DNA of 64,000 bases, taken from contig JBCDCH010000014.1 of the NCBI GenBank assembly GCA_039182125.1, forward strand, positions 1-64,000, in the 5' to 3' direction. Each line of letters opens with the position of its first letter. The stretch's first letter is position 1. Of the stretch, positions 24,477-49,149 are shown in pieces. The stretch is from Planctomycetota bacterium. GTDB lineage: Bacteria > Planctomycetota > Phycisphaerae > Tepidisphaerales > Tepidisphaeraceae. The position numbers and the translations under genes were made by a program. The notes under the pieces were generated by a model. The model did not search any database, was not told the origin of the DNA, and saw only the letters and a list, made by a program, of their open reading frames with translations.

Positions 24477-26254
24477 CACTCCTCCTCCAGACGCAGCTGG
24501 TGTCTCGCCATCTGCCAGTAGACGCCGCGCTTCTCCAGCAGTTGCTCGTGGGTGCCCTGTTCGACGATCCGGCCGGCGTCCATGACGTGGATCACGTCGG
24601 CGTCGAGCACCGTGCTCAGGCGGTGGCTCACGACGATGATGGTGCGCTGGCGCTTGAGGCCGATGAGCGTGTCGTTGATGCGCTGCTCGTGGACAGCGTC
24701 GAGGGCGCTGGTTGGCTCGTCGAGGACGACGATCGGGGCTTCGGTGAGCAGGGCACGGGCGATGGCGATGCGTTGGCGTTGGCCGCCGGAGAGGTTGCTG
24801 CCTTGCTCGCTAATCGTCGTCGCGTAGCCGTCAGGCATCGCGTCGATGAAGTTGGCCGCCCCGGCGAGTTCGGCGGCCCGGCGGATGTCTTCGTCGGTCG
24901 CGTCGGGGCGGCCGTAGGCAATGTTCTCCGCGACACTCGTCGGCAAGATCGGGTTCTCTTGCAGCACCAACGCCACATGCCGGCGGACATCGTGAACACG
25001 CACGTCGCGCATGTCGTGATCGTCGAGCAACACCCGCCCGCCGACCGGATCGTGGAAACGTGGCAGCAGATTGAGCAGCGTCGTTTTACCCACCCCGCTG
25101 CTGCCGACGAACGCCACCATTTGCCCCGGCTCGACGGTGAAGCTCACGTCGTTGAGTACCAACTCGCCGTCGCCATAGCGGAAGTCGACGCCTTCGAAAC
25201 GCAGCGTCCGCGGCCGCGTCGTCAACGCCTGAGCGTCGGGCAGATCGGAGATGATCGGGTCACGGTCCAACACCTCGAACACGCGCTCCACGCCGACCCC
25301 CGCCGACTGCAAACCGGCGGTCGAGCCCGACAGCTTGCTCAGCGGATCGTACAGCTGACCGAGGTAGCTGATGAAAAGCCAAAGCGTTCCGACGGAGATG
25401 CCGTCGTTGATCGCGCTGAGTCCGCCGAAGAGAAACATCGCGGTCGAGCCGACGGCGATGATCACGCCCAGCACGAGCCAGTACATGATCTCCTGCCAGT
25501 GCAGCCGCAGCGACGCGTCGATGTAGGTCCGGACGGTGTCGCCGAAACGTGCGTGCTCATCGCCCTGCCGGTTGAACGCCTGCACCAAACCGACCGCCGA
25601 GAGTGAGCGTTGGATCTGCGTCGTCAGGTTCGTGTCGGCTTCCTTCTGGGCGACGTTGTACTTCTTGAGCACGTTGCCCCACTTGGTGATGACGAGAAAC
25701 AGCGCCGGCACGATCGCCAGCGAGATCAGCGTCAGCTTCCAATCGAGGTTCAGCATGATCACGAGCATCACGACGAGCGTGAGCACGTTGACCAGCGCCC
25801 CGGTCGCGACGCCCAGCACGCCGTGGAAGCCGTGGGTGTCGTAGCTGAGCCGGTAGATCGCGTCACCCTGCGGCTGTGACTTGTGGTAGCCGAGCGAGAG
25901 TTGTTGGAGTTTCTGGAACAGGTCCAGCTGCACGCGCGTCCGGCCGCGGTAGCCGATGAGGATGTTGAGCTGCGCTTGGACGGTGCGGATGATCTCGTTG
26001 CCGAGGCGCAGCACGAGCATCGCCGCCGTGAGGGTGACGACCATCGCCGTCGTCTTCTCGCGCGGCACCCAGTCGAACAGGCGATACACCCAGCCGCGTG
26101 CCGAGTCGTCCTCGTTCATCACGTTGAAGAAGATCGCAATCGGCACCGGCGAGAGCAGGCCGAGCAACACCATCGCGGCAATGAGCACGAAGCTCAGCAG
26201 GATCTTCCCCAGATCATCGCGGTAGTAAGCCAGCGCCCGCCGATAGGTGTTCAC
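24476..26254 (-). CDS. ABC exporter, fused permease and ATPase (MsbA-like)
   Basis: Half-transporter of 592 residues that works as a homodimer. Six TM helices occupy roughly residues 15-310. The nucleotide-binding domain (about 345-585) has Walker A GSSGVGKTT, a Q-loop (LVLQENPILP), signature LSGGQRQRIAIARAL, Walker B IVVLDEPTSALD and an H-loop (VVSHRL). It resembles lipid A or polysaccharide-lipid flippases. It overlaps the GH-GT2 fusion gene by four bases and the DUF4258-like gene by one, so it is part of a compact operon and probably exports the product made by the neighbouring glycosyltransferases. Confidence 0.92.
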   Translation of the reverse strand: MNTYRRALAYYRDDLGKILLSFVLIAAMVLLGLLSPVPIAIFFNVMNEDDSARGWVYRLFDWVPREKTTAMVVTLTAAMLVLRLGNEIIRTVQAQLNILIGYRGRTRVQLDLFQKLQQLSLGYHKSQPQGDAIYRLSYDTHGFHGVLGVATGALVNVLTLVVMLVIMLNLDWKLTLISLAIVPALFLVITKWGNVLKKYNVAQKEADTNLTTQIQRSLSAVGLVQAFNRQGDEHARFGDTVRTYIDASLRLHWQEIMYWLVLGVIIAVGSTAMFLFGGLSAINDGISVGTLWLFISYLGQLYDPLSKLSGSTAGLQSAGVGVERVFEVLDRDPIISDLPDAQALTTRPRTLRFEGVDFRYGDGELVLNDVSFTVEPGQMVAFVGSSGVGKTTLLNLLPRFHDPVGGRVLLDDHDMRDVRVHDVRRHVALVLQENPILPTSVAENIAYGRPDATDEDIRRAAELAGAANFIDAMPDGYATTISEQGSNLSGGQRQRIAIARALLTEAPIVVLDEPTSALDAVHEQRINDTLIGLKRQRTIIVVSHRLSTVLDADVIHVMDAGRIVEQGTHEQLLEKRGVYWQMARHQLRLEEE

Positions 26255-28965
26255 GAACCGGCCTCCCCACCGCGCGCGAGTTCCGCATCGCTCGGCGACG
26301 TCTTGTCGAAGCCCCCCGCGCCGGCTGATGGCGAGATCGGCTCCGCACGCATGGCCGGCTCTGGGTCATCCTTCCGCGCGTCTTCATCCACCGGCCAGAA
26401 TCCCGCCTTCATCGCGGCCGTGTCGACCATGCCCAAAATCGGCCCGCGCACCTTCCACTTGTTGAACAGGAACAGCGCCCACCACGTGAGCGGGATCAAC
26501 ACCGCCGGGCGACTGAACGGCCAGAGCAGCAGCAAAAGCAACGCCGACAACACCAACGACCCGGCGAAGAGCACCTTGCCGAATCCGCTGGGTCGAATGT
26601 CCATGCGCAGCCGCGTGAGCATGCCCGCCGCGTGGTGCTCGGTGACGCTGGTGAGTTGCACCTTCACGTACCGGCTGCCGTAGATCTCCATGTCCCAGCC
26701 GGCCCAGCCCGAATCGACGCGCATCTTCAGTCGTGCCTTGCGCCCCTCGGCGGCGATGCGTTCGAGCAGCACATGACGATCGTGCTCGGTCGACCAGTAC
26801 TGCAACACCCGACGGTCGCCGGGGGCGAAGGGGAACTTCTGCACGCGTCGATGGGCACGGGCTTCCTGGGTGAGCTCCTTCTCCTTGAGCCGAACGGTGT
26901 AGCGGGCGGCGCCGCGGGTGATCGGCTGACGCCAGTGCAAGTACGCGATGAGCGGCTTGGTCCAGATCGACGCGTGCTGCGGCCGGGGTGCCTGCCACGC
27001 CGCGACGATGGCCAACACGATCGGCACGCAGAACATCCCGAGCGCCACGTACACCAACGGCAGAAACGCCGCCGACAACAGGAAAACGAACGCGGTGAGC
27101 AGGTGCCACTCGACGCTCTGCAACAGCTGCGCGACAAGCGACACGGGTCGGCGGTAGATGGTTTGGAAAAGCCCGGTCCCCCAGACGCCGTGGTAGATGA
27201 CGTCCTTGCCGACGCGCACGCCGATATCAGCCCCGTAGATGCGGCCGCGCCAATGGGCGCTGCCGAGCGTGTTGAAGCGGTCGGGGTGCTTGAACTTCAG
27301 CAGCGCCTCGGCCTCGCCGTAGCCGCGCTGTTGCTTGAGGTACGCTTCGATGGAGTTGCGGCGGTAGTGCCAGACTTGCGCGGCCGACGCGAAGCCGATC
27401 GAGCCGCCGGCGTTCTGCAAACGCCAGATGAAGTCGACGTCGTCGCCGGCCTTGCGGAACTGCGAGTCGAACCCGCCGACGTCCAACGCCGCCCAGCGGT
27501 AGAACGCCATGTTGCAGCCCGGCACATGCTCGGCGGTGCGATCGTCGATCATCACGTGCGTCGGCCCACCCGGCGAAAGCCCCACGCAGTCCGCAACCCA
27601 TGAGCCTTCATCCGGGATCAAGTTCGGCCCGCCGATGCCGACATGGTCGCTGCGCGTCAGATGCAGCGCGATCTGGTACAGCCAATCCTCGTCGGCCTCG
27701 CAGTCGCTGTCGGTGTAGACGATGATCTCGCCCTCGGCCGCCTCCATGCCGACATTGCGCGCGACGCTCAGGCCCTTGTTCGTCTGCTTGATGTTCCGCA
27801 CCCAGGGGAACTTGGCGAGGATGTCTTGCGTGTGGTCGGTGCTGCCATCGTCGACGAAAACGACTTCGTAGTCCGGGTAGTTGATCCGCTCCATCGACGC
27901 CAGGCACGACTCGACGGTGCTCGCGCCGTTGTAGCTGCAGACGATGACGCTGATCTTCGGCAGCTCGATATCGGCCGTCTGCGGAGCACGGCGGAACGCG
28001 TCGGCGACCGCTGCAAACGCCGGCTTCTCGATCCGCTTGCCGTCCTCACCGACCTCGGCTCGCGTGCAACCAAAGAGCCAATCGTCCACGCGATAGCCGT
28101 GCGTGAACCAGTCATCGGTGAAGGCGAAGACGAACCCGCCGGCCAGACCTTCCTCGTACATCGCGGCAAGCTGTTGTCCGAGCCGATCGGCCTGCTCCTG
28201 CTCGTCGGCTTCGCGGAAGGTATCGACGCCGTACTCGCCGAGCACCAACGGCTTCTCGCCCGCGATGTGCTGAAGCCGCGCGAGGTACCGGCGAAACGTC
28301 TCCGGCTCATGCAGATAAACGTTGTACGTCACGAAGTCGATCGCGTCGGACGTGAGGTACTCGGTGCTCGGGAAGTTGGCGAAGGTCACCAGGCACGCCG
28401 GCGCGATCGCCTTGACCTCCGCGACCAAGTCATCGAGGAACGCGCTGATCCGCTTGGCACGCATGAAGCGCACCATGTCGGCCGGGATCTCGTTGGCGAT
28501 CGAGAGCGCAAAGACGGCCGGGTGATTTCCACACCGCTCTGCCGCCTCGCGCATCGACGCCTTGGCCGACTCGACGACTTCACGGTCGCTGATCGCCTGG
28601 TTCTTCGGCCAGGCCACGTCGACTAGCAGCTTCATCCCCAGCTCATCCGCCAGCGCCATCAACCAGCCCGGCGGGATGTGATACACCCGCACGCAGTTGG
28701 CCCCGCCGTCGCGCATCTGCACGAAGTCCCGCCGCGTCTGCTCCGGGTCGGGCAGCGGATCGCCATCGGCGTTGGGTTCGAACGGCCCGTAGGTGAACCC
28801 CTTGATGTACCACTTGGCATCGCCGAGCCTAAAGAACTTGCCATCAAGCCGGACCCGATTGGTCACCGGCTCGGCGACGCGCTTGCGGCCGGTGGCGGAC
28901 CGCTCGGAAATTATCGCCGACGCGGCGGGATCGCGCACGGCGGGCTCGGCTTCGGACACACTCAT
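26251..28965 (-). CDS. Glycoside hydrolase-like TIM barrel fused to a GT2 glycosyltransferase
   Basis: Protein of 904 residues with two enzymatic modules. Residues about 38-325 form a (beta/alpha)8 barrel like GH2/GH5-type clan A hydrolases: acid/base Glu in SIANEIP (N158-E159) and nucleophile Glu in VLGEYGVD (E244). Residues about 335-550 are a GT2 domain with VDDGSTD (371-377), the metal-binding DSD at 419-421, and AGDDVDFIWR as the catalytic-base region. Several TM helices follow (about 595-660 and 775-815), with a PilZ-like or unknown stretch between (RVDSGWAGWDMEIYGSRYVKV). ATG 28965 is chosen because upstream in-frame Met codons lack support. The fusion suggests synthesis and trimming of the same polymer at the membrane. 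Confidence 0.85.
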   Translation of the reverse strand: MSVSEAEPAVRDPAASAIISERSATGRKRVAEPVTNRVRLDGKFFRLGDAKWYIKGFTYGPFEPNADGDPLPDPEQTRRDFVQMRDGGANCVRVYHIPPGWLMALADELGMKLLVDVAWPKNQAISDREVVESAKASMREAAERCGNHPAVFALSIANEIPADMVRFMRAKRISAFLDDLVAEVKAIAPACLVTFANFPSTEYLTSDAIDFVTYNVYLHEPETFRRYLARLQHIAGEKPLVLGEYGVDTFREADEQEQADRLGQQLAAMYEEGLAGGFVFAFTDDWFTHGYRVDDWLFGCTRAEVGEDGKRIEKPAFAAVADAFRRAPQTADIELPKISVIVCSYNGASTVESCLASMERINYPDYEVVFVDDGSTDHTQDILAKFPWVRNIKQTNKGLSVARNVGMEAAEGEIIVYTDSDCEADEDWLYQIALHLTRSDHVGIGGPNLIPDEGSWVADCVGLSPGGPTHVMIDDRTAEHVPGCNMAFYRWAALDVGGFDSQFRKAGDDVDFIWRLQNAGGSIGFASAAQVWHYRRNSIEAYLKQQRGYGEAEALLKFKHPDRFNTLGSAHWRGRIYGADIGVRVGKDVIYHGVWGTGLFQTIYRRPVSLVAQLLQSVEWHLLTAFVFLLSAAFLPLVYVALGMFCVPIVLAIVAAWQAPRPQHASIWTKPLIAYLHWRQPITRGAARYTVRLKEKELTQEARAHRRVQKFPFAPGDRRVLQYWSTEHDRHVLLERIAAEGRKARLKMRVDSGWAGWDMEIYGSRYVKVQLTSVTEHHAAGMLTRLRMDIRPSGFGKVLFAGSLVLSALLLLLLWPFSRPAVLIPLTWWALFLFNKWKVRGPILGMVDTAAMKAGFWPVDEDARKDDPEPAMRAEPISPSAGAGGFDKTSPSDAELARGGEAGS

Positions 28966-29052: not shown

Positions 29053-30552
29053 TCACCCGGCGAATCCTGCGGTCGAGTCCGAATTCATGTCCCCAGGGAA
29101 GTTTTCTCTGAACCAATGACCGATCAGTCGATCGATTGATTTCTCGCTTTTGGCGTCGAAGGCGGTGACATGAGTGAACTCCCCACATCCGCGGGCCCGC
29201 AGCACGGCGTAGTTCTCGTTAAAGTCCGTGACACACTCGGCATCGAGCAACACCAGCAGGGGCTTTTCCTGACCGTCGAGGTAGCCGAACTCGTGGCCCA
29301 TGCTCGGGGTGATCGAAGCATGAACGTCGCCGTTGTTCCGGGGCCGGGTCACGACCATGATGCCGCCGTCGGCGATCCACAGGCGGGATGTCACTTCATT
29401 GTACGGCGAACGGCCCTGCACGATGTCAACGGTCGCTTCGACCGGGTCGGCCCCCAGATCCGCGAGCACCTTCTTGATGCGTTCGAACAGGCGGTTGGTC
29501 TGCTGGCAGAGGTCGACGTCGAAGAATCGGCGTGAGAGAAAGATCTTGCGCCGCTTGGCCGAATACTTGCGCTCGGCCGATTCGATGAAACCGCGAAACT
29601 CCTTGCGTGCTTCGACCGGCTTGATCCAGCGGTTCGCCTTGCGGGCGACAGGATTGAGCTGCGGTTCGGTCGGGCCGTCCCATCGCACGATGTTGGTCGC
29701 GAACTGCTTGGCCGCTCCGCTTTCTCGCAACAGCGCCGAAAGCCGTGCTTGCGTGAACTCCGACGCCTGCTCCACCCCGTCCGGCTCACAGACCGCGATG
29801 AGGCTGGCAAGCCCGCTGCGCATCCCGCCACGCCGCAGCAGCGCCGAAAGAATGTTCGCCTTGGCCTCGAACAGGCATCCCAGGATCGCGTCGAGCGCGC
29901 CGGGCTCGTCCTCATGCTGAATCGCAACGGTCCGCGCGCCCTTGAGCGGGAACACCAGACGCAGCAACCGCCGCTCGGTGTCTGAGCAGATCACCGCGGC
30001 GTTGAGGTCGACCTTGTCGGCGCCGTCGGGAAAGTGCTCGCGGATCTGCTCCCGCCAGTCGTTGTCGGCCGGGAGTTGGACCCACCCGTCCTGGAGCGAC
30101 GCGATCGTCCGCCACGCCAGGTCCAGCGACGGTCCGTGCTCCATCACCTCCCAGCCTTCCGCGGCCGATATCGTCTCCACGTCCGGGTCGGCCGGGTTGA
30201 TCAGCTGAAGCACCATCGTCAACTCATGACGGGCCCCGCTCGCGACGGTCGCCGCCTCCGCCAGGGCAATGTTGTACGAATGGGACTTGGGCAGGTTGTC
30301 GCGGATCGCCCCGGGGCTCTCGGCGGCTGAGATTTTCACCGTCGCGATCTTGTCCAGTTTCATCAGGTCCAGCACTGACACCACCAGGTCGCCCACCGGA
30401 CGACCGTTCTCGGCACGCTCTAGACCGACACGCACGTCCGTGCCTGTCATCAGTCCCAACGCCCCACGGTGGTACCACGGCACCGGCAACAACTGCTGGC
30501 CACGCGAATCCGCGCGGTGCTTCAACTCGACCAAGCCACTCAAGATCAACAT
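29053..30552 (-). CDS. Protein with ACT-like regions and a C-terminal TIR-like domain
   Basis: Protein of 499 residues, no signal peptide. Residues 55-120 and especially 207-265 (RTVAIQHEDEPGALDAILGCLFEAKANILSALLRRG) look like ACT-type ligand-binding modules. Residues about 334-482 (KIFLSRRF...ADLGADPVEATVDIVQGRSPYNEVTSRLWIADGGIMVVTR...MGHEFGYLDGQEKPLLVLLD) have the order of strands and helices of TIR-like nucleotide-binding domains, with E421 in GHEFG as a catalytic Glu candidate. ATG 30552 is preceded by AAGGGG. It leads the polysaccharide gene run, 87 bases upstream of the fusion gene, and is divergent from a metallophosphoesterase. A regulator or stress sensor is plausible. The TIR call is tentative. 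Confidence 0.5.
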   Translation of the reverse strand: MLILSGLVELKHRADSRGQQLLPVPWYHRGALGLMTGTDVRVGLERAENGRPVGDLVVSVLDLMKLDKIATVKISAAESPGAIRDNLPKSHSYNIALAEAATVASGARHELTMVLQLINPADPDVETISAAEGWEVMEHGPSLDLAWRTIASLQDGWVQLPADNDWREQIREHFPDGADKVDLNAAVICSDTERRLLRLVFPLKGARTVAIQHEDEPGALDAILGCLFEAKANILSALLRRGGMRSGLASLIAVCEPDGVEQASEFTQARLSALLRESGAAKQFATNIVRWDGPTEPQLNPVARKANRWIKPVEARKEFRGFIESAERKYSAKRRKIFLSRRFFDVDLCQQTNRLFERIKKVLADLGADPVEATVDIVQGRSPYNEVTSRLWIADGGIMVVTRPRNNGDVHASITPSMGHEFGYLDGQEKPLLVLLDAECVTDFNENYAVLRARGCGEFTHVTAFDAKSEKSIDRLIGHWFRENFPGDMNSDSTAGFAG

Positions 30553-30753
30553 GGCAACCCCTTCGACGGCTGGAGACACAGCGCCCGGCGAGCGGTCCCG
30601 AGATCGGACCGGCGAGTAACCACCTGGCACCCGGAACACTCATACTGAGCCCCGGCGTCACGTGCAAAACCGCCCGAAACTCGCCACATCTGCACGATCC
30701 GGCATTTGGCCAGCTCGATTGACGCCGATGCATGCGTGCGCAACACTGCCCGA

Positions 30754-31659
30754 ATGAGCGACTGGGCCGACGTTTCGGATGTGACCGCGGACGAGGTGAG
30801 TGAGACCTTCGAAGCAGCGCGCGACGAGCTCATGCTCGATCCCTATCGCGACGGGCAGGTGGTACGCCTGCAAGAGAATGCCGAACTCTGGGTCACCGGC
30901 GACCTGCACGACCAGCGGACTAACTTTTCCAAACTGCTGGCCACCGCTGACCTGGGCGACAACCCACGCCGGCACCTGCTGCTGCACGAACTCATCCACG
31001 GCAGCTACTTCGATCCCAACGGGGCCGAGGATAGCTGGAAGATGCTCTACCGAGCCGCCGAGCTCAAGTGCGACTTTCCCGAGCAGGTTCACTTCATCCT
31101 CGCCAACCACGACCTGGCCCAGATCTTCGGCGAGGGCATCATGAAGGCTGGCCTCAGCGTCTGCGAGGCCTACACCAAGGGCATCAAGAACCACTTCGGC
31201 GAGACCGGCGGCGCCCTGGTCGAGTCGGTCATGACCGAATTCTTCCTCGCCCTGCCACTGGCGGTCAGCACGCCGGGCGGGACGTTCGTCTGCCACTCGC
31301 TGCCGCAGGACGAACAGATCGATGACTTCGACTACACGGTGTTCAAACGCGAACGGCTCAAGAAGCCGGACTACCAGCGTCGCACCGGCCCGGCCTACCA
31401 GCTCATCTGGGGCCGCAACATGTCGCCGGCCACCACCGAGAAGTTCGCCGAGAACGTCGGTGCCAACGTCATCATCACCGGCCATCAGCCCCAGGACAGC
31501 GGCTTCATGGTCAACGGCGACAAGCACCTCATCATCGCCTCCGACCACGCCCAGGGCGTGCTCCTGCCGATCGACTGCGGCGAGAAGTACGAGATGGCCG
31601 ACCTGGTCAGCAAGATCACCCGCTTCGTCGCGATCGATCCGGAGACGTTCGGGAAGTAG
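30754..31659 (+). CDS. Calcineurin-like metallophosphoesterase
   Basis: Cytoplasmic phosphoesterase of 301 residues. Metal-ligand motifs occur in order: GDLHD (49-53, GDxH motif), LANHDL (116-121, an N-H-D with Ala for Gly), CHSLP (about 180) and ITGHQPQ (241-247), followed by ASDHAQG. These are the marks of binuclear metallophosphatases acting on phosphoproteins or small phosphoesters. ATG 30754 is chosen because the fold begins shortly after. It stands alone, divergent from the ACT/TIR-like gene with about 200 bases between, and its stop lies seven bases from the convergent permease stop. Confidence 0.85.
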   Translation: MSDWADVSDVTADEVSETFEAARDELMLDPYRDGQVVRLQENAELWVTGDLHDQRTNFSKLLATADLGDNPRRHLLLHELIHGSYFDPNGAEDSWKMLYRAAELKCDFPEQVHFILANHDLAQIFGEGIMKAGLSVCEAYTKGIKNHFGETGGALVESVMTEFFLALPLAVSTPGGTFVCHSLPQDEQIDDFDYTVFKRERLKKPDYQRRTGPAYQLIWGRNMSPATTEKFAENVGANVIITGHQPQDSGFMVNGDKHLIIASDHAQGVLLPIDCGEKYEMADLVSKITRFVAIDPETFGK

Positions 31660-47355: not shown

Positions 47356-49149
47356 ATGCGCTGGTCGCAATCGCTCATTCCGACGCTCAAGCAAGATCCC
47401 GCCGACGCGGTCATCCCCTCCCACAAGCTTCTGGTCCGGGCCGGGTTCATCCGCCAGCTCACCGCCGGCGTTTACACGCTCTTGCCATTGGGGCTCCGCT
47501 CGCTCCAGAAGGCTGAGCAGGTCGTCCGCGGGGAGATGGACGCGGCGGGCGCGGTTGAACTGCGTATGCCGACCTTGCAGCCGATGGAGCTCTGGCGCCA
47601 GACCGGCCGCGACGTGTCCTACGGCGAGAACCTCTTCCGCCTCGAAGACCGCCACGGCACCGAAAACGTCCTCGGCCCCACGCACGAGGAAGTCGTCACC
47701 TCCGTCGTCAAGGACGCGGTCAGCTCCTACAAGCAGCTCCCGCTCAACGTCTACCAGATCCAGACCAAGTTCCGCGACGAGTTCCGCCCGCGGTTCGGCC
47801 TGCTGCGCGTGCGCGAGTTCACGATGAAGGACGCGTACAGCTTCGACGTCGACCTGGCCGGCCTCGACGCGGCGTACGACAAGATGTACGCGGCCTACGA
47901 GAAGATCTACGCCCGATGCGGGATCGAGGTGATGGCCGTCGAAGCCGAGTCCGGCCCCATCGGCGGCAACGCCTCCCACGAGTTCATGGCCCCCTGCGAC
48001 GTCGGCGAAGACACGATCCTCGTGTCCGACAAGGGCAACTACGCCGCGAACGTGGAGAAGGCCGGCATCGGCGAGCGCGAGTGGACCTTCGACGGCGAGC
48101 CGACGGGTGAGCTGGAAGAAGTCCACACCCCCGGCATGCCCGGCATCGAAGAAGTCGGCAAGTTCATGAAGGTCAAGCCGAAGAACATGCTCAAGACGCT
48201 GATCTTCGAAGCAGATTGCGGCAAGGGCAACGAACATACCGCCTGGATGAATACGGTATTGGTGCTCGCAGTGGTTCGAGGGGACCAAGAGGTGAACGAG
48301 GCGAAACTGCTTTCTGCCGCGAAGATTGCGAGCCCAGACATCCGCGCAATGCGACTGCTGCCGGATGAGCGTAAAGGGGACTTGCCGATTGGGTTCGTCG
48401 GTCCGCACATCCTGCAAAGAGACCCGCAGTCGGCCGCCGAGGGCGGGCTTCTCTTGGTTGATCCCGATGCGGCTCAAGATGGGTTCTGGACCGTCGGGGC
48501 AAACAAAGTCGACCATCACGTCAAACACTTCAACTGGAAACGCGACTGCATCGATCCGCTGATGTCGGCAAAACGGCGCGTGCATGTCGCGGACATCCGC
48601 AACGCCCACGCTGATGACCCGTCGCCGCTGAACGACGGCGGCACGCTTGCCGAGCGCAAGGGCATCGAGCTTGGCCACGTCTTCAAGCTCGGCACCAAAT
48701 ACTCCGACGCGCTCGATGCGCAGGTGCAGACCGAGTCGGGCGAGCGGGTGCCGATGATCATGGGGTGCTACGGCATCGGCGTGGGTCGCATCCTCATCGC
48801 CGCCGTCGAGCAGGGCCACGACGACCGCGGCATCGTCTGGCCGACCGCCCTCGCGCCCTTCACCGTCGTCATCACGCCGATCAAGTACGACGGCGAGATG
48901 AAGACCGTCGCCGACCAGCTCTACGCCGACCTGCAGGCGAAAGGCATCGACGTCCTCCTCGACGACCGCGACGCGCGGCCCGGCAGCAAGTTCGCCGACG
49001 CCGACCTCATCGGCATCCCCCACCGCATCACCGTCGGCGACCGCGGCCTCGCCGAAGGCGTCGTCGAACACAAACGCCGCGGCGACAAGGACGCCACCAA
49101 CGTCCCCGTCGCCGACATCGTCGATGTGATCGCCAACGCACTGAAGTAA
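47356..49149 (+). CDS. proS: Prolyl-tRNA synthetase, bacterial type
   Basis: Class II synthetase of 597 residues that charges tRNA-Pro. Motif 1 is around GEMDAAGAVELRMPTLQP, motif 2 in TKFRDEFRPRFGLLRVREF, and motif 3 in CYGIGVGRILIA. The INS editing domain lies between motifs 2 and 3 (about residues 220-405) and marks the bacterial type. An anticodon-binding domain closes the chain. AAGG stands before ATG 47356. Within the INS domain, about 48196-48560, codon choice shifts to gca, gat, gta, aaa, ttg and aga codons that are rare in the flanks. A REPIN-like element follows the stop. Confidence 0.96.
   Translation: MRWSQSLIPTLKQDPADAVIPSHKLLVRAGFIRQLTAGVYTLLPLGLRSLQKAEQVVRGEMDAAGAVELRMPTLQPMELWRQTGRDVSYGENLFRLEDRHGTENVLGPTHEEVVTSVVKDAVSSYKQLPLNVYQIQTKFRDEFRPRFGLLRVREFTMKDAYSFDVDLAGLDAAYDKMYAAYEKIYARCGIEVMAVEAESGPIGGNASHEFMAPCDVGEDTILVSDKGNYAANVEKAGIGEREWTFDGEPTGELEEVHTPGMPGIEEVGKFMKVKPKNMLKTLIFEADCGKGNEHTAWMNTVLVLAVVRGDQEVNEAKLLSAAKIASPDIRAMRLLPDERKGDLPIGFVGPHILQRDPQSAAEGGLLLVDPDAAQDGFWTVGANKVDHHVKHFNWKRDCIDPLMSAKRRVHVADIRNAHADDPSPLNDGGTLAERKGIELGHVFKLGTKYSDALDAQVQTESGERVPMIMGCYGIGVGRILIAAVEQGHDDRGIVWPTALAPFTVVITPIKYDGEMKTVADQLYADLQAKGIDVLLDDRDARPGSKFADADLIGIPHRITVGDRGLAEGVVEHKRRGDKDATNVPVADIVDVIANALK

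Follow-up and report, generated by a model that had tools for sequence, protein, structure and literature searches.

In a 4.13-Mb draft genome of the planctomycete class Phycisphaerae we found a gene whose 499-residue product, P0001, joins a tandem pair of ACT units to a C-terminal domain that, on the evidence of sequence profiles, is moderately well supported as TIR/NDT-like. The tandem ACT assignment has good support, both for unit 2 and for the fold of the pair. We infer, as a tentative reading that falls a little short of an even chance, that P0001 is a single-chain, metabolite-gated TIR-like N-glycosidase that would act on NAD or a related nucleotide; its ligand binding, gating, catalysis and substrate are all predictions. 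The full architecture was found in one Phycisphaerae genome, and because the claim rests on one protein P0001 is presented here as a lead and not as a family. Searches of the open-access literature yielded no published ACT-TIR fusion.

Architecture of P0001

The gene lies on contig 14 of the draft genome, which supplied the window (the whole stretch of DNA that was analysed, 64,000 nucleotides). The features of the gene are as follows:

29053..30552, minus strand: P0001, tandem ACT plus TIR/NDT-like domain, 499 aa (ORF call and start codons of relatives)
30376..30495, minus strand: conserved N-terminal element, aa 20-59, with the pattern PxPWxxRxxLGLxTGTxV (the strongest block shared with relatives)
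30091..30348, minus strand: ACT-like unit 1, aa 69-154 (AlphaFold beta-alpha-beta-beta-alpha-beta order at low to moderate confidence, PDB matches and weak ACT-family matches)
29698..29934, minus strand: ACT-like unit 2, aa 207-285 (Pfam in the relative L030, profile and fold search)
29101..29550, minus strand: predicted TIR/NDT-like domain, aa 335-484 (eight-protein HMM, hhalign, and Nuc_deoxyrib_tr as best Pfam family)
29290..29292, minus strand: triplet for E421, the Glu of GHEFGY and candidate catalytic residue (invariant column)

An earlier note on this DNA, made from the letters alone, had placed an open reading frame on the minus strand at 29053-30552, and this frame does encode 499 residues. 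The start is the ATG at 30552, and an equivalent Met opens the three relatives described below (the four N-termini read MLILSGL, MPVSGDL, MQVSGDL and MFVLGDL). Its GC3 is 0.82 and its codon-position GC is typical of the local genes. The same note had read the protein as an ACT region followed by a TIR-like region; both halves are supported, with the correction that the ACT units number two. The unit it had recognized, at about residues 207-265, is confirmed by Pfam scores at the same place in L030 and by the fold search, and the one it had overlooked occupies residues 69-154.

The Pfam ACT score of P0001 itself is modest (E=0.045). At unit 2 the Chloroflexi relative L030 scores 1e-5 for ACT_4 and 3e-5 for ACT, slightly short of the Pfam cut-offs, and a profile search gives a hit to the ACT domain of phosphoglycerate dehydrogenase (E=0.026). 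Unit 1 shows weak ACT-clan matches in the three relatives, each scored separately. An AlphaFold model computed from a four-sequence alignment with no template contains two beta-alpha-beta-beta-alpha-beta units in series (residues 69-154 and 207-285). Its pLDDT is about 70-86 at residues 40-70 and 145-283 and only about 46-60 over residues 70-140, so that unit 1 is less sure than unit 2; a single-sequence model of the whole protein has a pLDDT of 37.6, too low for use. The top PDB matches of the four-sequence model are almost all ACT proteins, mostly tandem ones, led by 2nyi, SerB2, the GcvR-like 1u8s, BT0572 and aspartate kinase (E-values of 2e-5 to 1e-3), and the tandem matches cover both units over about 220-230 aligned columns.

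Ahead of the ACT units, residues 20-59 are predicted by AlphaFold to form a strand-helix-strand-strand arrangement. This segment possibly represents an AbrB/MazE-like hairpin, which we offer as a lead only: the AbrB profile match, with ranks of 1, 2, 14 and 332 in a set of about 4004 sequences that contained shuffles, is weak, and Pfam does not register it.

Relatives of the two-ACT module

A survey of 41 related genomes returned no match to P0001 beyond the home genome. A class-wide search recovered one relative, in genome G275, and a search around it added another in G397; a profile of the shared N-terminal module, run against a species-level genome collection, returned these two together with L030 from Chloroflexi. 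Within genus g204, two of the three genomes have the module. As only these relatives were returned, and L030 ends after the ACT region, the module is rare, spread over two phyla and equipped with differing endings. L030 (JAQBZW010000017.1, 5995-6984) is a complete stand-alone two-ACT protein of 329 residues that bears the same N-terminal 'PLPWYHRAPLGFKTGT' block and has no C-terminal domain.

The proteins of G275 and G397 (L029 and L028) carry a conserved C-terminal domain of about 175 residues that is 30% identical between them and corresponds to no Pfam family. In both genomes the module gene adjoins that for GAPDH. A shared TIR-like C-terminus in G275 and G397 was considered and is not supported, since these C-termini align neither with a TIR profile nor with P0001: hhalign gives them 0.2% probability against TIR profiles and 0.4% against P0001. 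The only similarity between P0001 and the G397 C-terminus is a 16-residue 'HVTAFD' stretch (Z=4.4).

The C-terminal domain

Within the whole protein the C-terminal half is matched by no family of Pfam, NCBIfam or PADLOC, TIR_2 included, and it shows no pairwise similarity to canonical TIR_2 members. When the domain is searched in isolation, the sole family listed among the 24736 of Pfam is Nuc_deoxyrib_tr (PF05014), at an E-value of 0.21 that is far short of the cut-off. To this may be added the evidence of a reference set of eight real TIR/NDT-like proteins, fetched with a consensus of a TIR-like subfamily with an E-I-G-Y motif, which itself matches TIR_2 (8e-13), CAP12-PCTIR_TIR (2.5e-7) and Nuc_deoxyrib_tr (4e-7) in Pfam. 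As this consensus was composed after P0001 had been viewed, the choice of the set was not blind and selection bias is possible.

An HMM of the eight proteins, with the consensus excluded, gives residues 327-490 of P0001 a score of 19.3 bits, with an E-value of 8e-5 in a set of about 2000 sequences; the best of 2000 shuffles reaches 12.6 bits. In leave-one-out rebuilds of the HMM, P0001 ranks first each time, at 16.0-24.9 bits and ahead of all shuffles. Among 1213 ORFs from all the loci and the window, every ORF that outscores P0001 sits in a TIR/NDT locus, including two that had not been expected and, when inspected, turned out to be TIR/NDT-like; the top score of an unrelated ORF is 7.5 bits. 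Comparison of the C-terminal half with the TIR/NDT-like profile by hhalign gives 72.9% (P=3e-5), and a profile built from six members of the reference set matches the PDB NADases Cat1, AbTIR and SARM1. When 23 domains from TIR_2 loci are made into a profile, it fails to recognize P0001 (rank 57 of about 2000). The similarity of P0001 is to the TIR/NDT-like branch of 'Q-E-I-G-Y' motifs and not to canonical TIR_2. The profile test supports the earlier note's call of a TIR-like region at 334-482, which Pfam and PADLOC do not.

The Glu that the note had singled out, E421, is present and falls in the column of the family's invariant Glu: E421 and G423 are the only invariant columns in the nine-sequence TIR/NDT-like alignment. 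The sequence around it in P0001, PSMGHEFGY, is unusual and lacks the Trp of the W-V-x-x-E pattern that several of the reference proteins show. In TIR NADases the catalytic residue is a conserved Glu at the same position, which NDT-type enzymes have as well (PMC13174449, PMC11204291). Modeling gave low confidence over this half: the pLDDT is mostly under 40 in the four-sequence model and stays below 50 throughout in both models. A PDB match to thymidine kinase (E=0.21-0.81) was taken as chance.

Searches for relatives of the domain covered several collections. In 392 genomes of the phylum they gave only short or unrelated ORFs, judged to be chance; in 268 genomes an enlarged profile recovered many TIR-like proteins, none of them close to P0001. 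A tblastn search of plasmids and phages returned nothing, as did scans of viral contigs (IMG/VR) for which P0001, its ACT module and a pair of TIR alignments served as queries. A weak TIR_2 match elsewhere in the window (48883-48999), inside the C-terminal part of a prolyl-tRNA synthetase-like frame, was dismissed as chance. Two genomes each carry a pair of adjoining TIR-like genes (loci L095, on G103:C318, and L071). At a further locus (L040) a 280-residue plus-strand ORF encodes a second NDT/TIR-like protein beside a TIR_2 gene on the opposite strand.

Genomic context

The gene for P0001 is flanked by two others, which we do not count as parts of its system:

26251..28965, minus strand: fusion of a glycoside hydrolase (GH) with a GT2 glycosyltransferase, opening a conserved glycan operon (Pfam; kept in the family without P0001)
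30706..31659, plus strand: metallophosphoesterase, divergent neighbor (Pfam PF00149, 1e-8)

The mechanical ORF start of the GH-GT2 gene is 29040; the true start is probably 28965, judging from where alignments to relatives begin, which would leave about 87 bp after P0001. This gap could hold the glycan operon's own promoter. The GH-GT2 gene is followed by an ABC exporter and then by more genes, including two ORFs of 393 residues, one of them glycosyltransferase-like by Pfam. The GH-GT2 fusion is kept in most genomes of the family, with 57-66% identity in most members.

In six relatives the metallophosphoesterase gene is directly divergent from the GH-GT2 gene, with an estimated 160-394 bp between the start codons; in the home genome the distance is 1665 bp. 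Because the two flanking genes adjoin in these relatives, P0001 is most simply explained as a gain in the home lineage, inserted upstream of an unrelated glycan operon. The earlier description of the gene as heading the operon holds only for position, P0001 being inserted upstream of the glycan operon that the family conserves. No defence genes were found beside P0001, its neighbors being transport, glycan and other housekeeping genes, and PADLOC, run on the domain and five neighbors, gave no match beyond a shared ABC ATPase and a weak partial match to BrxA.

Proposed function and alternatives

The usual ligands of ACT domains are amino acids. In the mechanism that we tentatively favor, the tandem ACT half of P0001 would bind a small ligand and/or dimerize the protein, and the ligand-induced change would travel via the linker (residues ~286-334) to the TIR/NDT-like domain, where E421 would serve to cleave the N-glycosidic bond in NAD or in a related nucleotide. 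The gene would have been acquired or formed in the home lineage and set upstream of the unrelated glycan operon.

The most likely alternative, which we nevertheless consider somewhat unlikely, is a ligand-responsive regulator of the GcvR type, in which the TIR/NDT-like domain would be a catalytically dead binding or oligomerization module and the AbrB-like N-terminus might bind DNA. The resemblance of the tandem ACT half to the GcvR-like 1u8s would fit such a protein, as would the AbrB-like N-terminal pattern, with which the predicted secondary structure agrees, and the completeness of L030 without any C-terminal domain; that the G275 and G397 C-termini are not recognizably TIR-like would be expected if activity were unselected. 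However, P0001 retains E421 and G423, the sole invariant positions of the reference proteins, and the AbrB match is weak and invisible to Pfam. Improbable, in our estimate, is a further reading, that the C-terminal half is an unrelated alpha/beta domain, matched by the profile through chance or through the selection of the reference set. It would account for the lack of an above-threshold Pfam match, of a confident model and of homologs in our searches, and for the failure of the canonical TIR_2-locus profile; yet P0001 beats all 2000 shuffles with the full and every leave-one-out profile, no unrelated ORF scores near it, and when the domain is searched by itself the one family that Pfam lists, out of 24736, is of the same superfamily.

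A role in abortive infection, in which the ACT pair would sense a metabolite linked to infection and NAD depletion by the TIR-like domain would kill the cell, we regard as improbable. The distribution is patchy, with P0001 in one of the 41 genomes of the first survey and the module in two of three g204 genomes, and the gene is a clean gain between two conserved ones, both of which a defence gene might display. Among the TIR proteins of bacteria, many serve as defence effectors (PMC11204291, PMC13174449). Against this role stand the PADLOC result (across the domain and five neighbors, nothing beyond the shared ABC ATPase and the weak, partial match to BrxA), the transport, glycan and other housekeeping functions of the neighbors, the lack of plasmid, phage or IMG/VR relatives in our scans, the native composition of the gene, and the location of the module gene beside GAPDH in other Phycisphaerae.

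The partners known for bacterial TIR enzymes are mainly defence sensors. If the metabolite-gated N-glycosidase reading of P0001 is true, ACT gating would tie NAD cleavage to the levels of amino acids or other metabolites, suggesting a housekeeping or stress role, and P0001 would reveal a divergent TIR-like branch overlooked by TIR profile libraries. The broader idea that P0001 stands for a new class of metabolic-sensor TIR enzymes, in which ACT sensing of the amino-acid type would directly control the cleavage of NAD or nucleotides within one polypeptide and a two-ACT module would swap output domains between lineages, is unlikely in our estimate.

Comparison with known systems

The GcvR-like 1u8s, SerB2 and BT0572, which are among the top structural matches in the PDB, have two consecutive ACT units like the N-terminal half of P0001; unlike P0001, no TIR/NDT-like domain is described for them. 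On the side of the C-terminal half, the nucleoside 2-deoxyribosyltransferases (PF05014) are the sole Pfam family for the isolated domain, though only at E=0.21. Their nucleophile sits in a similar E-x-G-Y motif, and they are normally small, stand-alone enzymes. The DUF4062/Swarozyc TIR-like NADases resemble P0001 in having a divergent TIR-like domain, a single conserved Glu and accessory domains; P0001 differs in giving no Pfam match to DUF4062, and the available text of the source mentions no ACT partner for Swarozyc (PMC13174449). From the TIR NADases P0001 differs in being passed over by TIR_2 and in having a tandem ACT pair as its partner instead of a known defence sensor. With AbTIR, Cat1 and SARM1 (TIR_2/CAP12-PCTIR_TIR) it nonetheless has in common the strand signature and the invariant Glu-x-Gly, and the reference profile matches the structures of these enzymes.
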